Positions 233 through 15,971 of a stretch of 18,260 bases of DNA are shown here, piece after piece. The position numbers were made by a program, and so were the translations under genes. The stretch is from Microcaldota archaeon (GTDB taxonomy: Archaea; Micrarchaeota; Micrarchaeia; Micrarchaeales; CABMGC01): contig JAKBRL010000001.1 of the NCBI GenBank assembly GCA_021845465.1, positions 1 through 18,260 of the forward strand, given 5' to 3'. The notes under the pieces are model-generated. The model made no database searches, was not told the DNA's origin, and saw only the letters and a program-made list of their open reading frames with translations. Numbering within the stretch: the stretch's first letter is position 1; every line of letters starts with the position of its first letter.

Positions 233-502
233 ATGTCTCTGGCGACTGCAAACATGTCTCCAAATGGGGAAGTTGTAATACCGTACGAACTTAGGAAGAA
301 ATTAAACATTTCTGAGAAGAGTATACTGGTTTTTAGGGAATCGAACGGAGAGTTGATTATAAGGCCAATATCTCCATTCTCAGAACTTATGGGGATAGAC
401 AAGAAACTTGGGATAAGTTCTTCTTCTTTGAAGAAGCTTAGAAGTGAGTGGAACAGAAAGCAGGTTAAGAGGATTGGTGCTTCTGATGGATTACATATTT
501 GA
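233..502 (+). CDS. vapB: AbrB/SpoVT-type antitoxin (VapB-like)
   Basis: This 89-residue protein has a swapped-hairpin AbrB-type DNA-binding domain at its N-terminus. The pattern SPNGEVVIPYELRKKLNI (residues 9-26) matches the family pattern S-x-G-[QE]-[VI]-x-[IL]-P-x-x-[IL]-R-x-x-L-x-[IL], followed by the strand segment ILVFRESNGELIIRPI. The C-terminal 40 residues are basic and helical-looking, as expected for the part that wraps around a toxin. The start at 233 leaves the usual seven or so residues before the hairpin; an ATG at 254 would cut into the first strand. The gene overlaps the PIN-domain gene by 17 bases, the typical antitoxin-first arrangement. It probably represses its own promoter with the toxin as co-repressor. 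Confidence 0.85.
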   Translation: MSLATANMSPNGEVVIPYELRKKLNISEKSILVFRESNGELIIRPISPFSELMGIDKKLGISSSSLKKLRSEWNRKQVKRIGASDGLHI

Positions 503-878
503 TACATCTTCATTCATAGCTTTTTTCAACAGTGATAAAGGCGCTGGAAAGATAGCAAAGCTCTTGAATAAAGTAGAAAAGGAGGAAGTGAACGGATATG
601 TAAGTCCTATAACCCTCACAGAACTCTATTACCTTTATGCGAGGAAGGATGTTTCGCTTGCCAATGACAGAGTCGAGGCGATTCTCTTCTCAAAGCTGAA
701 AATGGTAAAGATAGATGCTGAATTGACTCTGAAAGCAGAGAAGTACAGCAATAAGGATGTGCCGCTTGCTAACGCACTTATAGCCGCTGCAGCGGAGAAG
801 TATGGAGCCACTGTAGTCGCGCATTGCGACGGATTTGAGAAATTAGGGATTGATCTCTTTGATTACGAGTCAGGATAA
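486..878 (+). CDS. vapC: PIN-domain toxin (VapC-like) with altered acidic residues
   Basis: This 130-residue PIN domain is the size of a VapC ribonuclease. The ATG at 486 starts the usual first strand, DYIFDTSSFIAFF, with D6 as the first acid; E46 in LTELYYLY is the second. An ATG at 444 in the same frame would add 14 residues that do not fit the fold. The usual third acid, in a D-A-[LI]-I-A motif, is here N96 (LANALIAAA). The fourth, usually D three residues before a Phe, is C114 in HCDGF, with D115 one step later. Enzyme activity may therefore be weakened or use shifted residues. The gene overlaps the antitoxin gene by 17 bases and is surely co-transcribed with it. VapC toxins cleave structured RNAs such as tRNA or rRNA; the target here is unknown. 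Confidence 0.85.
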   Translation: MDYIFDTSSFIAFFNSDKGAGKIAKLLNKVEKEEVNGYVSPITLTELYYLYARKDVSLANDRVEAILFSKLKMVKIDAELTLKAEKYSNKDVPLANALIAAAAEKYGATVVAHCDGFEKLGIDLFDYESG

Positions 879-7836: not shown

Positions 7837-9492
7837 TTATTCAGGCATTCCTCCCATTCCTGGAGGCATTCCGCCTCCTGCGCCAGCGCCTCCAGACCTT
7901 CCTTTGGAGCTTATCATATCATCTATCCTAAGGATTGCAGCTGTTGCTTCTGTAGCGCTTGAAAGGGCTTGGAGCTTTACCTTCAGAGGCTCTATTACTC
8001 CTGGCTTTTCCATGTCAGCTATGGAGTTGGTGTACACATCTATTCCATAGACCTTCCCAGAATCTGTTTTATGCTTAGTCCTTAGGCTTACTAGAGTATC
8101 TATGGCATCCATCCCTGCGCTGTCTGCAAGTGTCTTAGGTATGACTTCAAGCGCGTCTGCAAATGCCTGTATTGCAAGCTGCTCTCTGCCTCCTACGTCA
8201 GTTGCATAGTCCCTTATCTTTGAGGCTACCTCTATCTCGGTACTTCCTCCTCCGGTCACATATTTGCCTGACTCTATTGCGCTTGCTAGTGCACCTAGAG
8301 CATCTGTAAGTGCCCTTTCTACCTCATCGACTGTCTGTTTTGCGCCTCCCCTTATGAAAATGGTCACGCTCTTTGGATCTTTGCATTTCTCTACAAATAC
8401 CATCTGTTCTCCTGAGACTTTCTTCTCCTCAACCATTCCCGCAAAGCCGAGATCCTCTTTTGTGAGGTCATCAAGGCTTGTTACAAGCCTTGCGCCAGTT
8501 GCCTTTGCAAGTTTTTCCATGTCGCTCTTCTTTGCTCTTCTGACAGCCATTATGCCTGCCTTTGAGAGATAGTGCTGTGCAACATCGTCTATTCCTTTCT
8601 GGACGAATATTACGTTTGCTCCGCTCTTTGCTATCTTTTCGGCCATCTCCTTCAGCATCTTTTCTTCCTGGGCTAAGAATGCCTGCATCTGATCTGGAGA
8701 GGTTATCTCTATCCTTGCATCAGTCTCTGTCTTTTCTATCTCCAGAGCGACATCAAGTAAAGCTATCTTCGCGTCCTTTATCTGCTTAGGCATTCCAGGA
8801 TGTGCTATCTCCTTGTCTATAAGGACACCGTTTATGAAGCTGGTCTCTTCTATGGAGCTGCCTTCCTTCTTCTCGAGCTTAATGAAGTCTCTGTCTATTG
8901 TTACTTTGTCTCCATTAGTTATGGATACCTGTTTTATTGCCTGCAATGCTAATTTTGCGAGCATCTGCTTTGTCTCTGGGCTTCCTATGTTCTTTGAGCC
9001 CATCGAGATCATTGCTATCTTTTGAAGCTTGTCCTCGTCGTTCAAGCTTATCTTGCCTGCTATTGAGTTTAATATCTCATATGCCTTGGATCTTGCCATC
9101 TCGTAGCCTTTTATTATTGCTGCAGGAGGTATCCCTTGGTCGAGTAGGCTTCCTGCATTCTTAAGCATCTCTCCGGCAATTATCACCGCGGAGGTTGTTC
9201 CGTCGCCTACCTCCTTGTCCTGAGTCTTGGCTATCTCTACCATTATCTTTGCTATAGGGTGCTCTACATTCATCTCTTGCAGGATTGTTGCTCCGTCGTT
9301 AGTTATTATTATGTCTCCTAATTCGCTTACAAGCATCTTGTCCATTCCTTTAGGACCCAGAGTAGTTCGCACTATGCTGGATACCGCATACCCTACTGCA
9401 ATGTTGGTACGCTGGGCTTCCTTTCCGATTAGTCTGCTTGCCCCTTCAGGTAATATCAAATACTGTTGCCCTCCTAGTTGGTTTTCTGCCAT
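7837..9492 (-). CDS. ths: Thermosome (group II chaperonin) subunit
   Basis: This 551-residue chaperonin folds cytosolic proteins using ATP inside a two-ring complex with a built-in lid. It has the TCP-1 marks: RTTLGPKGMDKML near residue 42, the nucleotide site NDGATIL and GDGTT (96-100), an intact apical domain, RGGAKQTVDEVERAL, VTGGGSTEIEVA and the DALEVIPKTLADSAGMD signature. The tail is GGAGAGGGMPPGMGGMPE, a Gly-Met tail as in GroEL and some archaeal thermosomes; such tails line the cavity. The ATG at 9492 gives MAENQLGGQQYLILPEGASR, a standard start. A TTG at 9522 would add 10 unneeded residues. It is a single-gene unit, divergent from tbp, with its own terminator. Confidence 0.96.
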   Translation of the reverse strand: MAENQLGGQQYLILPEGASRLIGKEAQRTNIAVGYAVSSIVRTTLGPKGMDKMLVSELGDIIITNDGATILQEMNVEHPIAKIMVEIAKTQDKEVGDGTTSAVIIAGEMLKNAGSLLDQGIPPAAIIKGYEMARSKAYEILNSIAGKISLNDEDKLQKIAMISMGSKNIGSPETKQMLAKLALQAIKQVSITNGDKVTIDRDFIKLEKKEGSSIEETSFINGVLIDKEIAHPGMPKQIKDAKIALLDVALEIEKTETDARIEITSPDQMQAFLAQEEKMLKEMAEKIAKSGANVIFVQKGIDDVAQHYLSKAGIMAVRRAKKSDMEKLAKATGARLVTSLDDLTKEDLGFAGMVEEKKVSGEQMVFVEKCKDPKSVTIFIRGGAKQTVDEVERALTDALGALASAIESGKYVTGGGSTEIEVASKIRDYATDVGGREQLAIQAFADALEVIPKTLADSAGMDAIDTLVSLRTKHKTDSGKVYGIDVYTNSIADMEKPGVIEPLKVKLQALSSATEATAAILRIDDMISSKGRSGGAGAGGGMPPGMGGMPE

Positions 9493-9585
9493 ATTATCAC
9501 TTGTTTTCTTTTTTAAGTACAAATAGAGACGTTTTTCAAAACAATTCTTGCTATTCTGAAAGACAATATATTATGCCAGGCAAAA

Positions 9586-9593
9586 TATTTATA
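9586..9593 (-). promoter_or_regulatory. Probable TATA box of the thermosome gene
   Basis: The minus strand reads AAAGGTATAAATATTTT, a good archaeal TATA element. It lies about 94 bases before the ATG at 9492 and predicts a leader of about 70 bases, long for this window. The 9493-9714 region between the two divergent genes shows nothing else I can support. Confidence 0.45.
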
Positions 9594-9674
9594 CCTTTGG
9601 AGAGAGGCTTTGATAGTGCAGATGCATGCCTTTTAGTCGAGAATAGGGCTTCCGGATGAGTGGTTTCCCGAGAT

Positions 9675-9688
9675 AGCTTTAAAAAGCT
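9675..9688 (+). promoter_or_regulatory. Palindromic TATA box of tbp
   Basis: AGCTTTAAAAAGCT is an exact inverted repeat (AGCTTT and AAAGCT around AA). Its centre is 33 bases before the tbp ATG, the right distance for a near-leaderless transcript. A symmetrical box is striking next to a gene for a one-repeat TBP. Confidence 0.6.
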
Positions 9689-9714: not shown

Positions 9715-10023
9715 ATGGCAAAGGAAGAAAAAAACAGGAAGCCCTTAGTTAAGATAAACCCTAAGATAAAGATACAAAACATAGTGGTAAAGTCGGATCT
9801 TCATGCCAATATAGACCTTTTTTCTCTTTCAAAGAATATCAGGGAAGTTGATTACGAACCTGAACAATTTCCAGGCGCGATATATAGGATAAAGGAGCCT
9901 AAGGCAGTTATAATATTATTCAAAAATGGAAAACTGATCTGTACCGGGTCGAATACAACCAAGAATATAAAGATAGTACTCGAGAGGGCAACGAAGGTCA
10001 TATCGAAGTATGTAATTTCTTGA
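9715..10023 (+). CDS. tbp: Single-repeat (half-size) TATA-binding protein
   Basis: The 102-residue product contains one TBP repeat; normal TBP has two in about 180 residues. IQNIVVKSDL, then YEPEQFPGAIYRIKEPKAVI, then ILFKNGKLICTGS match the repeat closely. The residues that in known TBPs contact DNA are present: N22 and V24 (central minor groove), F52 and F69 (the kink-forming pair, 17 apart as in yeast F99/F116), and T77. A lysine-rich tail (residues 1-19) precedes them. The ORF is complete: neither the bases before 9715 nor the next gene carries a second repeat, so this is not a simple frameshift. Two copies would be needed to build the saddle, so I infer a homodimer. Whether the genome also has a two-repeat TBP is unknown. 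The downstream gene starts 4 bases later. Confidence 0.92.
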   Translation: MAKEEKNRKPLVKINPKIKIQNIVVKSDLHANIDLFSLSKNIREVDYEPEQFPGAIYRIKEPKAVIILFKNGKLICTGSNTTKNIKIVLERATKVISKYVIS

Positions 10024-10027
10024 GGTC

Positions 10028-10660
10028 ATGTTTGGTTTTGGGTTTATAGTTTCAAAGAGTAAGCCAAATAACGCAGATTCTTCTATTCCTTCTGGATATA
10101 ATTCACAGAGTAATCCTTCTGCTCAGTCTGTAAATCCTACATCATCCGCTTCTTCCAGAGGCACAGGTACGAAAGTCAGCCGCTTACTTGTGATTGGAGT
10201 AGTGGCTGTAGTGATAATTGCATATTTTGGATATTCGAAATTCACAGTAAATAAGACAAGTGTCTCTTCCAATAGACAGGGACTGACTTTAGGTTTGGGA
10301 AATTATGAGTGTACCGGATACGCAGGATTTACATGTGATATCCAGAGTATTAATTCTAATAATAATACAGATAGTATTACCTTGAGTATAAGTCAGAATA
10401 GTGGCAGTAATTGGACCGATGTAAAATTCTTTTTAATGAATTATTCTTTTTATGATCAGAATTATAATCTTGGTATTTTTCCAAGTTATAATGTAAGCTT
10501 ACCCGCGCTGAATAACGGAAGTATTGCGAAGATAACTTTGTCAGTTCCTGCTATTTCAAATAAATCGAGCGACTACCTTGTTGCTAGTTACAGTACTCCA
10601 GATGAGCCGAATGCGACATCATCAGTAACATTAGGTGAGATTGGATCGCAGATTCCTTAA
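10028..10660 (+). CDS. Sequon-rich membrane protein of unknown function
   Basis: This 210-residue protein has a Ser/Asn-rich, probably disordered N-terminal part (about 11-45), one membrane helix (about 51-70) and an extracellular domain of about 135 residues. That domain looks all-beta (SITLSISQNSG..., IAKITLSVPAI), has a Cys pair (C95, C103) and eight N-x-S/T sequons (N75, N112, N128, N138, N155, N163, N178, N195), which makes N-glycosylation very likely. The ATG is 4 bases after the tbp stop, and the TGAGGTC overlap supplies a possible ribosome-binding site, so it is probably co-transcribed with tbp. No functional link to transcription is evident. I do not recognise a family. Confidence 0.75.
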   Translation: MFGFGFIVSKSKPNNADSSIPSGYNSQSNPSAQSVNPTSSASSRGTGTKVSRLLVIGVVAVVIIAYFGYSKFTVNKTSVSSNRQGLTLGLGNYECTGYAGFTCDIQSINSNNNTDSITLSISQNSGSNWTDVKFFLMNYSFYDQNYNLGIFPSYNVSLPALNNGSIAKITLSVPAISNKSSDYLVASYSTPDEPNATSSVTLGEIGSQIP

Positions 10661-10824: not shown

Positions 10825-11643
10825 TTATAAGTTTATATTTCTCTTTAATTTTCCAATGTCTTTTCTTAGTCTGCCAGACTCAAGCAGATCGGATATCTTA
10901 CCGTTTTTATTCTTATACCTTAGGCCGCTTATCAGAATGACAGGTAGACCGGCGTCGCTTTGACCCATTAACAGAGAACCGGCGGCGGCGACCTCATCTG
11001 CAAATGCGATCCTTACGTTCCTCTTCTTGCCATATATGTCCACCTCATTCATATCTCCTGTCAAAAGTGCAGGTATACCAGACACTCCTATTGCAAGCCC
11101 CAGCGAACCTGCCCTATACCTTATCCCTAATGAATCATTTATCACAATTCCAACTTCCTTGCCTGTGAGAGTCTTAATCCTATTCCTGATGCGGTTCGCG
11201 CTGTCGTCTGGATCTGCTGGCAAAAGGCTTACCATTTCCTTTTCTAGAGTGCCTGTGTTGGCCCTATCTATCCCACTGCTTGTGCAGATAAAACCTAACT
11301 TATGAATTGTTTCGATAATGCCGTTCTCCACACGTATTATCTCTCCTTCCTTCATTATCAGTTCAACCACTCTGGGGTCCTTCCCGCTTTTCTGCGCTAT
11401 CCTCTCTGCTTTTTTTGATGGTATTATCGATTTAAGAGAGACTAAGCGCCCTTCTGCTTTGGAGATAATTTTAGATGAGATGACCAGAATATCTCCATCT
11501 CTTGTCTCCATCTTATTTCGTGCCATAGCACCGAATATGATCTCTCCTAGATCATTCCCAGCTTTGATCAGTGGAATATCTGGAACTGCAGTCATAGTGG
11601 TTTTGTAGACTGCACATTTTAGCTTCTTATTCACAAATACCAT
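10825..11643 (-). CDS. cofE: CofE-like F420-0:L-glutamate ligase
   Basis: This 272-residue protein matches CofE, which adds glutamate to coenzyme F420-0 with GTP. Visible family segments are VPDIPLIKAGNDLGEII, DGDILVISSKIISKAEGRLV, PSKKAERIAQKSGKDPRVVELI, LLPADPDDSANRIR, VGIVINDSLGIRYRAGSLGLAIGVSG and FADEVAAAGSLLMGQSDAGLPV. The usual N-D-[ST]-[FL]-G-R-P-W-R here reads NDSLGIRYR. No other F420 gene is in the window, so the reaction could be F420 tailing or a related gamma-glutamyl ligation. AAGGTG (11654-11659), 10 bases before the ATG, is the probable ribosome-binding site. An ATG at 11595 is an alternative start but would remove the first strand. It lies 87 bases after the glycosyltransferase on the same strand. 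Confidence 0.85.
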   Translation of the reverse strand: MVFVNKKLKCAVYKTTMTAVPDIPLIKAGNDLGEIIFGAMARNKMETRDGDILVISSKIISKAEGRLVSLKSIIPSKKAERIAQKSGKDPRVVELIMKEGEIIRVENGIIETIHKLGFICTSSGIDRANTGTLEKEMVSLLPADPDDSANRIRNRIKTLTGKEVGIVINDSLGIRYRAGSLGLAIGVSGIPALLTGDMNEVDIYGKKRNVRIAFADEVAAAGSLLMGQSDAGLPVILISGLRYKNKNGKISDLLESGRLRKDIGKLKRNINL

Positions 11644-11730: not shown

Positions 11731-12873
11731 TTATCCTTTCTGGATCTGCTTTCTGGCTTTTGAGAGCTCAATATCAAACTTTTTGAAGAAAATTTCCCAG
11801 GAATAATTGCTTACGACTCTCTTCCTTCCGTTTCTGCCCATCTTTGCAGATTCCCCCGGATGCTCTGTGAGATAAAGCATCTTTTCGGCCATCTCCTTTG
11901 GTGAATTGACTAGGAAACCGGTTTTTCCTTCTGATATTGTCTCTGTTGGGCCTCCTTCATTTACAGAGATTACAGGCTTGGAGCTTGCCATTCCTTCCAA
12001 TGGCACATATCCATAATCCTCGTTTATAGCAGAAAAGAGCACTGCTGAAGATCTGGAGTATAGTTCTGAAAGCTCCTTGTCTGTTATGTTTGTTTTTATC
12101 TTTATATCAAGGCCTTTTGATAAGGATATCAGCTTTTTATAGTAGGCCTGGTGTTCCGGATTTGCAGATAAGGTGCCTGCAATTATAAGATGGTACCTTT
12201 TTTTAGAAGACTTGCTGAATCGCTTGAATGCTTCTATTACATAATCTTGGCGCTTGTTGGTGAGTATTCTTGAAGGATAGAAGAAGTATTTGTCGTCTCC
12301 TTGATTACTGAATTTTTCGTAGTCTATCCCTGGATTTATGACTTCGGATTCCCTTCCAAGATATTTCAGGATTCTTGCTTGTGTGTTTGTTGAATTTGCA
12401 GCTATGGCTTCTATGTTTTTTATAACCCTGTTGGATATAAGCTTGTAGGCTTTAGTCATTGCGGAATATAGGAACTTCTCTTTGTATGACCGGTATTTCA
12501 TCCTTTCAGAATAGAGATCGTAGACCTCCCTTGGAGGAGTATGGCAGTACCACAGAACTCTTGGATTCTTATGGCGTATCCACTCGCTTGGAGAGATATG
12601 TGCATTTAGCACATCGTAGTCTTCAGTTAGCTTTAAGTTGTAGAAGTTGTATCCGTATCTGAGGCCTTGTGATGCCCTGTATGGAAGCGCTTCTGAGAAA
12701 GGCACATCCTTTCCTATTACCTTTATGTCTAAGTCTTTGAATTCGGGAAATGTTGTTTTCGGATTGTATTCCAGAGTATATATTGGTGCTGAATAATGCT
12801 CGGCTATCTTCAGCATTACGCGCTCGAAGCCTCCTTTCAGGGATACATATGGCTGTATTATGAGAAGTTTCAT
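11731..12873 (-). CDS. GT4-family glycosyltransferase
   Basis: The 380-residue enzyme has the GT-B fold of family 4. The N-terminal half starts KLLIIQPYVSLKGGFERVMLKIA with the usual Gly-Gly donor/acceptor loop. The C-terminal half has FFYPSRILTNKRQDYVIEAF, then the E-x7-E motif EDYGYVPLE (near residue 283), then GGPTETI and GKTGFLV, which bind the nucleotide sugar. It begins 11 bases after aglB behind a near-perfect ribosome-binding site, so it is almost surely co-transcribed. It probably adds a sugar while the lipid-linked glycan for AglB is built. The sugar is unknown. No membrane helix is seen, so it works on the cytoplasmic face. Confidence 0.88.
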   Translation of the reverse strand: MKLLIIQPYVSLKGGFERVMLKIAEHYSAPIYTLEYNPKTTFPEFKDLDIKVIGKDVPFSEALPYRASQGLRYGYNFYNLKLTEDYDVLNAHISPSEWIRHKNPRVLWYCHTPPREVYDLYSERMKYRSYKEKFLYSAMTKAYKLISNRVIKNIEAIAANSTNTQARILKYLGRESEVINPGIDYEKFSNQGDDKYFFYPSRILTNKRQDYVIEAFKRFSKSSKKRYHLIIAGTLSANPEHQAYYKKLISLSKGLDIKIKTNITDKELSELYSRSSAVLFSAINEDYGYVPLEGMASSKPVISVNEGGPTETISEGKTGFLVNSPKEMAEKMLYLTEHPGESAKMGRNGRKRVVSNYSWEIFFKKFDIELSKARKQIQKG

Positions 12874-12878
12874 TCACT

Positions 12879-12886
12879 ATCACCTC
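12879..12886 (-). promoter_or_regulatory. Strong ribosome-binding site of the glycosyltransferase
   Basis: On the minus strand GAGGTGAT lies 5 bases before the ATG at 12873 and overlaps the aglB stop codon. It matches the complement of the conserved 16S rRNA 3' end, so translation re-initiates here after aglB. Confidence 0.75.
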
Positions 12887-15800
12887 ATCCAGGTATAGTG
12901 TAATTGTTGTGAACCCAGCTTGGCTTAGGAGGTATGTATGGAAGCTTTCCTGTGTAGTTATTCAGCCTCAATATCATTACCTGGTTTGATGAGTTCACCA
13001 TGTTTATTCCGGAGAAGTTCTCAGGATAAACTAGAGTGTATCCTGGCAGTTTTCCAAAGAAGAAGCCCTTGTAGTATGTCGAGCTGTAAAACTCAGTAGG
13101 TGCATTCGTAATGGTATCATTTGGCCCGTTTGGCAGATATATTGCAAGGAACTCCATTAGTGTCTGGCCGTTAGGGCCCTGTAGGCTTCCCATATAGTAA
13201 TTAGTAGACAGTACTATGTTGGTCTTGGTGCCGTTTTCGTTGTATACATCCAGGACTCCGTTTGAGTTAGGGGTTGTTGAGACACAGTATGAGGAGTTTA
13301 GAACATTTGGTATGGTTTGGCCTACAAGTGCCAATCCCTGCACTGCGGTAGTAGTGTTGGAAAAGCTGCAGTACTGGTTTATAGTAGGCTGTGCTGGAAT
13401 GGCTATGTCTACCGGATCGTGAGCCGTCTCGCATGGAGAAGTGCCTATCAGGAATGGCTGGTTGTACTGGGCTCCTTGTGAAATTGCATATGCACGGCTT
13501 GTTTGGTTTATGTCTACGCATGCAAGGAAATCTAGAGCAGACCATTTTTGCACTAGTTGGTTGTCAAATAGAAGATATCCTGCCTGAGCTGTATTGTCCA
13601 TGAATGATGCAAGCCTGGTGGCATTGTATCCGTCTTTGTTTCCCAGAACAAAATGTGCAGCTACATTGTAGTCGAGAGTTGCGACTGCGTTGTCGCCTCG
13701 AATCACGGCATTGCTGTTTCCAAACCAGTTTATCCAGTCTCCATAGTCCCACCATGCAAGTATTCTTGGCGCGTGTGGTCCTATGTTGCTTTTCGTCCAG
13801 GAAAGGGCATTTAGCCATTGATTTGTAAGGGTATTGCAGTACATAGTAGCTGCGACTACATTTGTTACATTGTTGCAGCTTTTTCCATATGCAGTGAATG
13901 TGCTTAACATTGAGCCTGATTCGAGTATTATTGCAATTAATATAATACCGATCAGAACATAAGTTGCAATCTGCCTCTTTGAAGGCTCAAGCCTTTTTAT
14001 CAATATATAAAGTTCCCCTATCACGATTCCCAGTGCGATTATGTAAGCTACTCCGAAGTGTGGAAGATATTTTATTTCACTCATTCCTGCAACTGCAAGC
14101 ACTGCGACCATGACAAATGTAAATATTGCAGACCTTGAATCTTTTACGAAGATATCATAGATGGTGAATATTCCAAACAATACAAGAATTATCCATACAG
14201 TTATAGGGAATCCAGATATGGCTGCGCCTATGACTCCGAATCCCGCAGATCCGAAGTTGAAGGCAGCGCCGGTAGTCACGTATTCCTGTACAGTCATGAA
14301 TAGTGGGGTTGATGGAGTTGTAAAGTGAGAAGCCAGAGCTAGAAATGAGGTTATAGGCCTGCTGAGAGGGCTGAGTACGGCAAGAGCCAGAATCAAAACA
14401 AGAAGACTTATTCTTACTACAAGGTCATTTACAGTTGTTCTCTTTAGGAGCTTGTACTTTTCAAGATAAACGGGCAGGTATTCGAATATCAGGGCTGCTA
14501 TGAACGCTATAAGAGGGAAGCCTATGATAGTTGGTATGCCAAGTATGCTTGGAATCCTGTTTGAAAGGGTTGCGTTGTAAGGGGCATATATCACATAGAA
14601 TATTATTATGACAAGGAGCATGATTCCGTTTGACTTGAAGAAGTCTATGCTGCTCTTCTTCCTTAGGGTATCGATTATTCCTTGTACAAGTATGTAAAGT
14701 GCAAGTACTGCGGCAGTTACATTGTAGTAGTGGGCTCCGAGGAAATTGGATGCGAACGCTATTCCTGCAAGTATTGCATATCTCTTCTCTTTTGGGTTCT
14801 TTACTGCGAGGGAGTATGCTGCCACCATGAAGAATAATGCGAAGATGCCCCATGGTTCAAGAAGTTGCTCTCCGGCTATGAATGTTGTTATTAGTGTAGG
14901 CATTGTTGCTATAAGTGCTGCGGCAGTAAGCGCTGGTAGTGAGCCATACTCATGATAGACAAACATGAAGACTATGAAAACGAGGAGTGCCGCTGTTATT
15001 GGAGGATAATAGGAACTTACAAGTGATAGAAGGTTAGTGCTTATTGTGGATGAACTTGGATGCGTATCTGCAATTCGATACCAATACGCTTCCAGATAAG
15101 GAATCAATGGCTGTATTCTGTCAGTAGTGCCGTTATTGACAGGCCATGCAGAATAATCAAGCCGGAATTGGTAGCCATAGGCCAGTATCTGCCTTGTGCT
15201 TAACATGTCAAAATAAGGATCAAACTCGAAGTATTTTGGAGAGTTTCCTATATTTATTATTCTTGAAGCGAATGTGATCAGCATTATAGCGAAGAGGATT
15301 CCCCATACAACATAGGCCCATTTCTTTGAGTCTGAAGAAGAGTTTTTCTCCGCTGGGCTCTTTCCGCTGCTTAGGAAGTGTTTTTCCTCTCTTTCATGCT
15401 CGCTTATTAACCTGTTTTCTTCCTCTATGTGGGATTTCTTTACATGTTCTAGTTCTTCTGCTCCTGCTCCCTTCTTTTTTAGAGCCTCGATCTCATCGTT
15501 GTTTCTTCTTGCGAGCTCTTCCTCTTCTTTTTCATGAGCCTTTACCATAGCCATGTCTAGTTCTGCTGAAGAGAATTGCTTTCTAAGATGTGTTATCCGC
15601 TCTCTTGCTGATGCGTTTATTTCAGTTATGACTCTAGAACTGGATTTTGAAGAGGATACCTTATTACTAAGAAAGGAGAAGTCTAAAGCTCCCTGTTGAT
15701 ATGATATAGCAATTCCTATTATAGTAAGCAGTATTACATTTATGTTGTAAAGGCCTACTGAAAATGAGAATGCATGTATAATATCCCTGAAATAGGATTC

Positions 15801-15971
15801 TGTCCAAGTAAGCATAGGAGGGAATATCATTCCGAATATGAATCCTATAACCGATATCTCAAATATGTTAAGCTTAGTTTTCTTGAGCAGGCCTAAGGCC
15901 AGGAAGAAGCCAGGAATCATTATTGATAAGAATCCGATTAGGAGGTCGGTGAAGAGCATTGTAGAAACCAT
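12885..15971 (-). CDS. aglB: AglB/STT3 oligosaccharyltransferase with N-terminal coiled-coil extension
   Basis: The 1028-residue integral membrane enzyme moves a lipid-linked glycan onto Asn in N-x-S/T outside the cell. The catalytic part starts near residue 218: a membrane helix, FEFDPYFDML with metal-binding Asp D251/D255, about a dozen membrane helices, and the WWDYG signature at 740-744 in the soluble C-terminal domain. Before this come about 220 extra residues: three hydrophobic helices (about 7-28, 36-58, 72-92) and a very charged coiled coil (about 115-205, rich in K, E and R). The first two helices (IMIPGFFLALGLLKK...FEISVIGFIFGM) recall the DUF1616 pattern, but I am unsure. Its own C-terminal domain carries sequons. 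ATG 15959 is an alternative start. It heads an operon with the GT4 gene. Confidence 0.93.
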   Translation of the reverse strand: MVSTMLFTDLLIGFLSIMIPGFFLALGLLKKTKLNIFEISVIGFIFGMIFPPMLTWTESYFRDIIHAFSFSVGLYNINVILLTIIGIAISYQQGALDFSFLSNKVSSSKSSSRVITEINASARERITHLRKQFSSAELDMAMVKAHEKEEEELARRNNDEIEALKKKGAGAEELEHVKKSHIEEENRLISEHEREEKHFLSSGKSPAEKNSSSDSKKWAYVVWGILFAIMLITFASRIINIGNSPKYFEFDPYFDMLSTRQILAYGYQFRLDYSAWPVNNGTTDRIQPLIPYLEAYWYRIADTHPSSSTISTNLLSLVSSYYPPITAALLVFIVFMFVYHEYGSLPALTAAALIATMPTLITTFIAGEQLLEPWGIFALFFMVAAYSLAVKNPKEKRYAILAGIAFASNFLGAHYYNVTAAVLALYILVQGIIDTLRKKSSIDFFKSNGIMLLVIIIFYVIYAPYNATLSNRIPSILGIPTIIGFPLIAFIAALIFEYLPVYLEKYKLLKRTTVNDLVVRISLLVLILALAVLSPLSRPITSFLALASHFTTPSTPLFMTVQEYVTTGAAFNFGSAGFGVIGAAISGFPITVWIILVLFGIFTIYDIFVKDSRSAIFTFVMVAVLAVAGMSEIKYLPHFGVAYIIALGIVIGELYILIKRLEPSKRQIATYVLIGIILIAIILESGSMLSTFTAYGKSCNNVTNVVAATMYCNTLTNQWLNALSWTKSNIGPHAPRILAWWDYGDWINWFGNSNAVIRGDNAVATLDYNVAAHFVLGNKDGYNATRLASFMDNTAQAGYLLFDNQLVQKWSALDFLACVDINQTSRAYAISQGAQYNQPFLIGTSPCETAHDPVDIAIPAQPTINQYCSFSNTTTAVQGLALVGQTIPNVLNSSYCVSTTPNSNGVLDVYNENGTKTNIVLSTNYYMGSLQGPNGQTLMEFLAIYLPNGPNDTITNAPTEFYSSTYYKGFFFGKLPGYTLVYPENFSGINMVNSSNQVMILRLNNYTGKLPYIPPKPSWVHNNYTIPG

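Follow-up and report, generated by a model that had tools for sequence, protein, structure and literature searches.

Half-size TATA-binding proteins as candidate general transcription factors in Micrarchaeota

Introduction

The ancestor of the TATA-binding protein (TBP) is thought to have paired as two halves on the promoter. The 18,260-nucleotide stretch of micrarchaeal DNA analysed here (the window) contains a TBP gene that encodes a single repeat, and a first-pass annotation proposed that the gene is complete and that its product might form a homodimeric saddle or serve as an accessory factor beside a normal TBP. The locus raises the question of whether a half-size TBP gene is intact, whether it is accompanied by a conventional TBP, how its product might work, and how the half state arose.

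Results and Discussion

An intact single-repeat TBP gene

The gene, which we call copy B, is an intact open reading frame at positions 9715-10023 (+ strand), with an ATG start and a TGA stop, that encodes 102 amino acids. PF00352 matched the protein in a single stretch (residues 17-99, profile positions 1-85 of 85) with a score of 86.7 bits and an E-value of 9.6e-25 (cut-off 22.9); it was the sole domain above cut-off, leaving little in the 102 residues besides one repeat. The best PDB matches of copy B were archaeal TBPs, and both repeats of each were matched. The DNA-contact residues expected from the first-pass annotation were present and conserved: N22, V24, F52 and F69 were kept in all 76 relatives of an alignment picked from 240 listed (75 single-repeat sequences and one two-repeat fragment), and T77 in 73 of the 76. 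By match to yeast TBP, we take these five positions to be minor-groove contacts or stirrup phenylalanines. The codons for N22-I23-V24, with the two presumed DNA contacts, lie at 9778..9786 (+). The stirrup motif YEPEQFPG (residues 47-54; 9853..9876, +) was identical at all eight residues in 76/76 relatives; F52 is presumably its first intercalating phenylalanine, and its acidic residues presumably dock TFB. The second stirrup phenylalanine, F69, and T77 are found in LFKNGKLICT (residues 68-77; 9916..9945, +), in which FKNGK marks the half-TBP clan, whereas the canonical TBP consensus is FxSGK.

A six-frame scan that read through stops detected no second repeat downstream of copy B, and the next open reading frame (10028-10660) was without a Pfam match. 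With PF00352, the six-frame scan gave one match on the contig of copy B and one elsewhere in the genome. The protein cluster of copy B (P0001; 6 member sequences) spans 15 contigs, and 12 B-type loci from other genomes were among the 190 loci compared, so copy B is not an assembly slip. The source assembly is a draft of 38 contigs, but we consider the chance that a frameshift or contig end conceals a second repeat negligible and rejected a broken two-repeat gene, since the downstream frames are devoid of TBP-like sequence, the gene lies inside its contig, and copy B-like lengths recur in many other assemblies. These results confirm that copy B is a real, conserved, one-repeat gene, and the proposal that it is complete rather than the remnant of a two-repeat gene was borne out.

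A TATA-like stretch read from the sequence, TTTAAAAAG (9678..9686, +), lies 29-37 bases before the copy B ATG and is a putative promoter element of the half-TBP gene. The divergent neighbour of copy B, identified by its domain match, is a thermosome (Cpn60_TCP1) gene at 7837..9522 (- strand). The link between the two genes is not conserved, since only one of the 12 other B-type loci (L108) has a thermosome gene. A second stretch between the two genes, GCAAAATATTTATACC (9580-9595, +), looks like a BRE/TATA element with no obvious gene behind it, and is perhaps the promoter of a small RNA; no Rfam family or tRNA was detected in the window.

TBP and TFB complement of the source genome

The source genome (992 kb, 38 contigs, 89.1% complete, 3.04% contamination), with the window on a contig of 58.8 kb, yielded exactly two PF00352 matches, both single-repeat. 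One is copy B; the other, copy A (L001:1426-1788, up to 120 amino acids), is on another contig, in a neighbourhood of ribosomal protein L21e, RpoF and DUF655. The motif YEPEQFPG is kept in both copies. No two-repeat TBP was recovered from the 89.1% complete assembly in a six-frame profile scan, although with this completeness and contamination a missing TBP gene is possible for the genome taken alone. The genome also encodes an intact TFB: PF00382 matched it twice, and a zinc ribbon was recognised by eye. The suggestion of an accessory factor beside a normal TBP, along with the proposed whole-genome search for a second, two-repeat TBP, was only partly upheld: a second TBP does exist, but it is also a half.

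Distribution of single- and two-repeat TBPs

We compared relatives across Micrarchaeota and found that half-TBPs are a clade-wide trait, a point that the first-pass annotation had proposed to check: they were the rule in 15 of the 27 families sampled, and two-repeat TBPs in eleven. A PF00352 match was present in 276 of 301 genomes of the phylum, and repeat number was assigned in most of them from frame lengths and from whether matches were unpaired or adjacent, rather than by gene-by-gene reading. Of the 60 genomes most closely related to the source (families f1 and f2), 59 had PF00352 matches, and none of these 59 had two repeats in one gene, save for a tandem at a contig end in G021 that we rejected as an artefact. 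Unpaired single repeats only were found in 44/44 genomes of f14-f16 and f18-f27, the set being all genomes of these families with an earlier PF00352 match; the one genome listed for f17 (G156) was without a match. Five single-contig genomes, G033 with one gene and G042, G048, G058 and G264 with two genes each, were likewise single-repeat only, and the long frame of G264 was read and holds one repeat.

Two adjacent repeats were found in 18/18 genomes of f5-f13 and in 55 of the 59 genomes of f3/f4, where the two-repeat genes of G071 and G117 are cut by contig ends and G110 is in pieces. The f3 genome G069 carries a true single-repeat TBP inside a contig (L360 on C11) in a family that is otherwise two-repeat, a further switch of repeat number. 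A few other genomes stand out. G258 (f2, outside the 60-genome set) has a 185-amino-acid two-repeat TBP (L092, C43) in addition to two single-repeat genes; the protein groups with canonical TBPs and is attributable to a contaminant contig or to transfer. The two-contig genome G149 has three half-TBP genes (L075-L077), of which L076 and L077 are identical wherever the matched repeat is present in both.

Half-TBPs also occur in Diapherotrites-like archaea. PF00352 matches were obtained in 77 of 80 genomes of other archaea (78 families); among the matches listed outside Micrarchaeota, single-repeat frames were found in G307, G328, G378 and G387, and the rest were two-repeat. Single-repeat genes are also present in G440 (family of G328) and G457 (family of G307). 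Contig C1 of G457 encodes in addition a degenerate two-repeat TBP-like protein (L364; 44.2 + 27.1 bits) with a lipoprotein-like signal at its start, perhaps an exported TBP relative, and its presence weakens the case for half-TBPs as the sole TBP outside Micrarchaeota. The single-contig, 98% complete genome G309 (L262) has TFB matches and no PF00352 match above cut-off (best 17.4 bits); G330 of the same family has a two-repeat TBP. Three proteins appear by eye to be three-repeat TBPs, either real or assembly products: P0241, from a contig of 989 bases, resembles the half-TBP clan, and P0242 and P0243 look canonical, their repeats sharing long identical stretches.

One gene slot with one or two repeats

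The 190 Micrarchaeota TBP loci, some of which represent one genome fetched twice, included 178 that were nearer copy A than copy B. Although many of the fetched stretches were short, L21e was present in 136 and DUF655 in 131 of the 178 A-type loci. The two-repeat loci of Micrarchaeota share this neighbourhood in the five examined (L21e 5/5, DUF655 5/5, RpoF 4/5). L21e and DUF655 were each present at 10/15 single-repeat loci of f14-f21; the corresponding counts for f22-f27 were L21e 3/20, DUF655 17/20 and RpoF 15/20. Single-repeat loci of Diapherotrites-like archaea gave L21e 3/12 and DUF655 6/12, and their two-repeat loci, with short flanks, L21e 0/6, DUF655 0/6 and RpoF 2/6. Canonical TBP loci, also with short flanks, had these neighbours in 0/38 cases. 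Within Micrarchaeota, and with five two-repeat loci examined, a single gene slot is occupied by a one-repeat TBP in some families and by a two-repeat TBP in others. The shared neighbourhood, together with the grouping of the two-repeat copies with half-TBPs, suggests that one housekeeping gene switched repeat number repeatedly.

Copy B does not belong to this slot, since L21e, RpoF and DUF655 were found at 0/12 B-type loci. The copy B clan (8 rows, support 100/100) was, in the loci examined, confined to f1 and f2 and is sister to copy A of f1/f2 (82/98) on a long branch. Copy B is a second, lineage-specific paralogue outside the housekeeping slot and, being restricted to f1/f2 among these loci, is not a direct ancestral relic. 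All eight genomes of the f1 genus g3 had one PF00352 match each, all A-type; such genera suggest that copy A is sufficient and that copy B was probably lost where copy A stands alone; the f1 genomes without copy B are mostly incomplete MAGs. A split TBP, with copy A as the N half and copy B as the C half, was rejected as a general picture because the two copies group together within the half clan and copy A seems enough in whole genera.

The long branch leaves room for a role of copy B other than that of copy A, and copy B could differ in role. We consider it unlikely that copy B is an accessory protein that pairs with copy A to inactivate or redirect it, or that bends DNA elsewhere. Its restriction to f1/f2, its apparent absence from several f1 genera and its position outside the housekeeping neighbourhood would suit such a role, but its contact residues and TFB-facing stirrup are kept, and dN against six relatives over 61 codons was 0.05-0.10 (dS was returned as -1 and is presumably saturated).

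Origin of the half state

A tree of 121 repeats, drawn from 151 repeat rows, was split with support of 100/100 into canonical N and C repeats on one side and half-TBPs with both repeats of the related two-repeat TBPs on the other, the latter TBPs coming from five Micrarchaeota families and six others. We thinned the 151 rows for speed to an 89-row tree, leaving out long-branch or odd rows, including L092, L093, L094, L242, L247, L263 and L264. This unrooted tree of 89 alignment columns was compatible with three clans: canonical C (87/80), the half clan (100/98), and canonical N, whose grouping could be enforced without penalty (p-AU 0.515). With N, C and halves as three clans, the unrooted tree accommodates ancestral and reduced halves alike. 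Rooting by DUF3378 of RNase HIII was rejected, as its matches at E up to 1 differed little among N repeats (14/25), C repeats (8/25) and halves (8/25). Within the half-TBP clan, a single clade of N repeats was weakly rejected (p-AU 0.0286), and single clades of C repeats (p-AU 0.0675) and of singles (p-AU 0.0971) were not rejected.

The two repeats of the 11 half-clan two-repeat proteins are 50-81% identical to each other, compared to 35-58% in canonical TBPs. At the DNA level, the longest runs of identity between repeats were 98 bases in L238, 78 in L250 and 46-47 in L090, L091 and L243; the other six of the 11 genes had runs of 11-32 bases, and three canonical controls 9-12. The runs of L250 and L238 point to a general transcription factor whose repeats either undergo gene conversion or were copied very recently; with runs of 46-98 bases in five of the 11 genes, conversion is a serious alternative to new duplication. 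A quick, unrooted single-gene tree of RpoB from 54 chosen genomes (G069 absent) separated all 21 canonical-TBP genomes from all 33 half-clan genomes by a branch with SH-aLRT 98; on this tree the single state needs five changes, at least four of them forced by starred branches.

Three histories were weighed against these results. We give an even chance to a derived reduction, in which a two-repeat ancestor of Micrarchaeota and Diapherotrites lost or split off a repeat, the remaining half now acts as a dimer, and two-repeat genes were remade by duplication. Two-repeat TBPs are widespread among the matches listed for the 80 other archaeal genomes, genome reduction is typical of DPANN, and the halves are slightly closer in mean identity to canonical C repeats (42.2%) than to N repeats (39.9%), all of which suit a reduction; a half clan that stands apart, outside both canonical N and canonical C, does not, and at the few positions diagnostic of N or C repeats the halves are mixed.

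Somewhat short of an even chance is a history without re-duplication, in which all two-repeat TBPs of the clade stem from one two-repeat ancestor, their repeats kept alike by gene conversion, and the halves are repeated losses. This history would explain the long identical runs between repeats, is compatible with the single clades of C repeats and of singles, and fits the single-repeat gene of G069 in a two-repeat family as a loss. It is at odds with the weak rejection of a single N clade, and the changes on the RpoB tree imply that switches took place, whatever their direction.

We regard it as improbable, though worth weighing, that the half-TBP predates the canonical duplication, that this duplication took place on the branch leading to the remaining archaea, and that Micrarchaeota and Diapherotrites kept halves and fused them separately. 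The separate clans of the repeat trees and the RpoB branch that parts canonical from half-clan genomes would agree with such an ancestral state. PMC7414124 places Altiarchaeota, Micrarchaeota and Diapherotrites in DPANN Cluster 1 and does not settle on one archaeal root; its candidates include Micrarchaeota-Diapherotrites versus the rest and DPANN Cluster 1 versus the rest, both of which would favour ancestral halves, and all DPANN versus the rest, which would not. The similarity of the DUF3378 matches, which provides no usable outgroup, and the 89 alignment columns also tell against ancestral halves. The fuller proposal, that Micrarchaeota and Diapherotrites retain the pre-duplication half-TBP homodimer as their sole TBP and that the two-repeat form was remade in place more than once, strikes us as quite unlikely.

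Structure and a possible mode of action

The AlphaFold2 model of copy B is a single-repeat TBP lobe (pLDDT 90.2) that superposed on one lobe of the human TBP-DNA complex 1cdw at 0.7 Å over 82 columns. Foldseek returned 44 hits for this model at E up to 0.001, all of them TBP chains or TBP fusions by title. The natural fusion L091 was modelled as a complete saddle (pLDDT 89.4), with TM (target) scores of 0.84-0.90 against the DNA-bound TBPs in its top 20 hits. Judged from sequence and models, the half-size TBP is likely to be a general transcription factor that acts once two halves have paired. Its most probable working form would be a homo- or heterodimeric saddle used with a normal TFB, and the homodimeric saddle seems the best-supported mechanism, with the natural head-to-tail fusions and the conserved contacts as what we would consider the best indirect evidence for a dimer saddle.

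In the proposed mechanism, two chains (B+B or B+A) would join edge to edge into a ten-stranded saddle, as in the canonical one-chain TBP. Both Asn/Val/Phe/Phe/Thr contact sets would hold the dimer on the TATA box, where it would bend the DNA and offer the YEPEQFPG stirrup to an ordinary TFB. Since copies A and B both keep this motif, either end of the dimer could dock TFB, and the BRE contact of TFB would set the direction. Copy A would be the housekeeping subunit, and copy B an extra f1/f2 subunit, dispensable in some genera and probably tuning promoter choice. We infer dimerisation, DNA binding and bending, the use of TFB and the division of labour between A and B.

We also looked at promoter regions. 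TATA-like hexamers were found at -50 to -20 of 20 of 78 divergent first genes, whereas two equally long upstream windows gave 11 and 9 (Fisher p 0.11 and 0.04), a weak enrichment in the expected direction. A promoter search by EM, run with no control, gave A/T-rich sequence and no clear motif, and a few TATA-like elements were seen by eye upstream of seven tRNAs (one with 19 bases only).

Other genes of the window

An overlapping pair at 233-878 (+) encodes a MazE/AbrB-type antitoxin (PF04014) and a PIN-domain protein (PF01850), resembling a VapBC-like toxin-antitoxin pair. An F420-0:gamma-glutamyl ligase family protein (PF01996, 200.7 bits) is encoded at 10825-11643 (-) of this reduced archaeal genome. 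A 1028-amino-acid membrane protein at 12885-15971 (-) has a WWDYG motif and an STT3/AglB core match of 22.3 bits, below the cut-off of 23; it adjoins a group-1 glycosyltransferase gene (11731-12873), and the two probably serve protein N-glycosylation.

Relation to known systems and significance

The half-TBPs have the domain, contact residues, stirrup and predicted fold of the canonical archaeal TBP (PDB 2z8u, 1mp9, 1pcz and 1ais), but the canonical protein has two tandem repeats per chain, whereas the half-TBP has one, in a clan apart from the canonical N and C repeats. The two-repeat TBPs of Micrarchaeota and Diapherotrites (such as L091, L238 and L244) belong to the same clan as the half-TBPs and amount to two half-TBPs head to tail where the half-TBP gene has one. 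The N-terminal domain of RNase HIII (DUF3378, PF11858) is also a single TBP-like domain, but copy B scored 17.5 bits against it, below the cut-off of 27, and is without an RNase H domain.

Monopartite TBP-domain proteins, each a stand-alone single TBP domain like copy B, are present in some Archaea, as Brindefalk and colleagues reportedly described in 2013. The half-TBPs here are in addition the only TBP detected, are family-wide, occupy a housekeeping locus and alternate with two-repeat forms. In the literature searched, we found no account in which half-TBPs are the sole TBP, characterise a whole clade or alternate with two-repeat TBPs in one locus, and the part of PMC7203096 that was searched makes no mention of TATA or TBP. 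Copy B scored at most 86.6 bits against the NCBIfam TBP models (PRK00394), whose cut-offs are 181-347, and the two-repeat L091 also fell below them. The 13 NCBI-given names among the copy B relatives listed were all 'hypothetical protein'; TBP does appear in JGI names and in some NCBI entries such as P0225. The scant notice of half-TBPs may stem from these models and names.

Organisms with halves as their only detectable TBPs, one of them in a housekeeping locus, would make the dimer stage of TBP testable with natural proteins. The single- and two-repeat relatives are natural before-and-after pairs that might show what a dimer loses and gains by fusion, and the repeat state of TBP is a character that follows a contested deep division in the Archaea. 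Should the pre-duplication half-TBP indeed have been retained, the archaeal root would lie between the Micrarchaeota/Diapherotrites branch and all other archaea, and the origin of TBP would have been replayed within these lineages.
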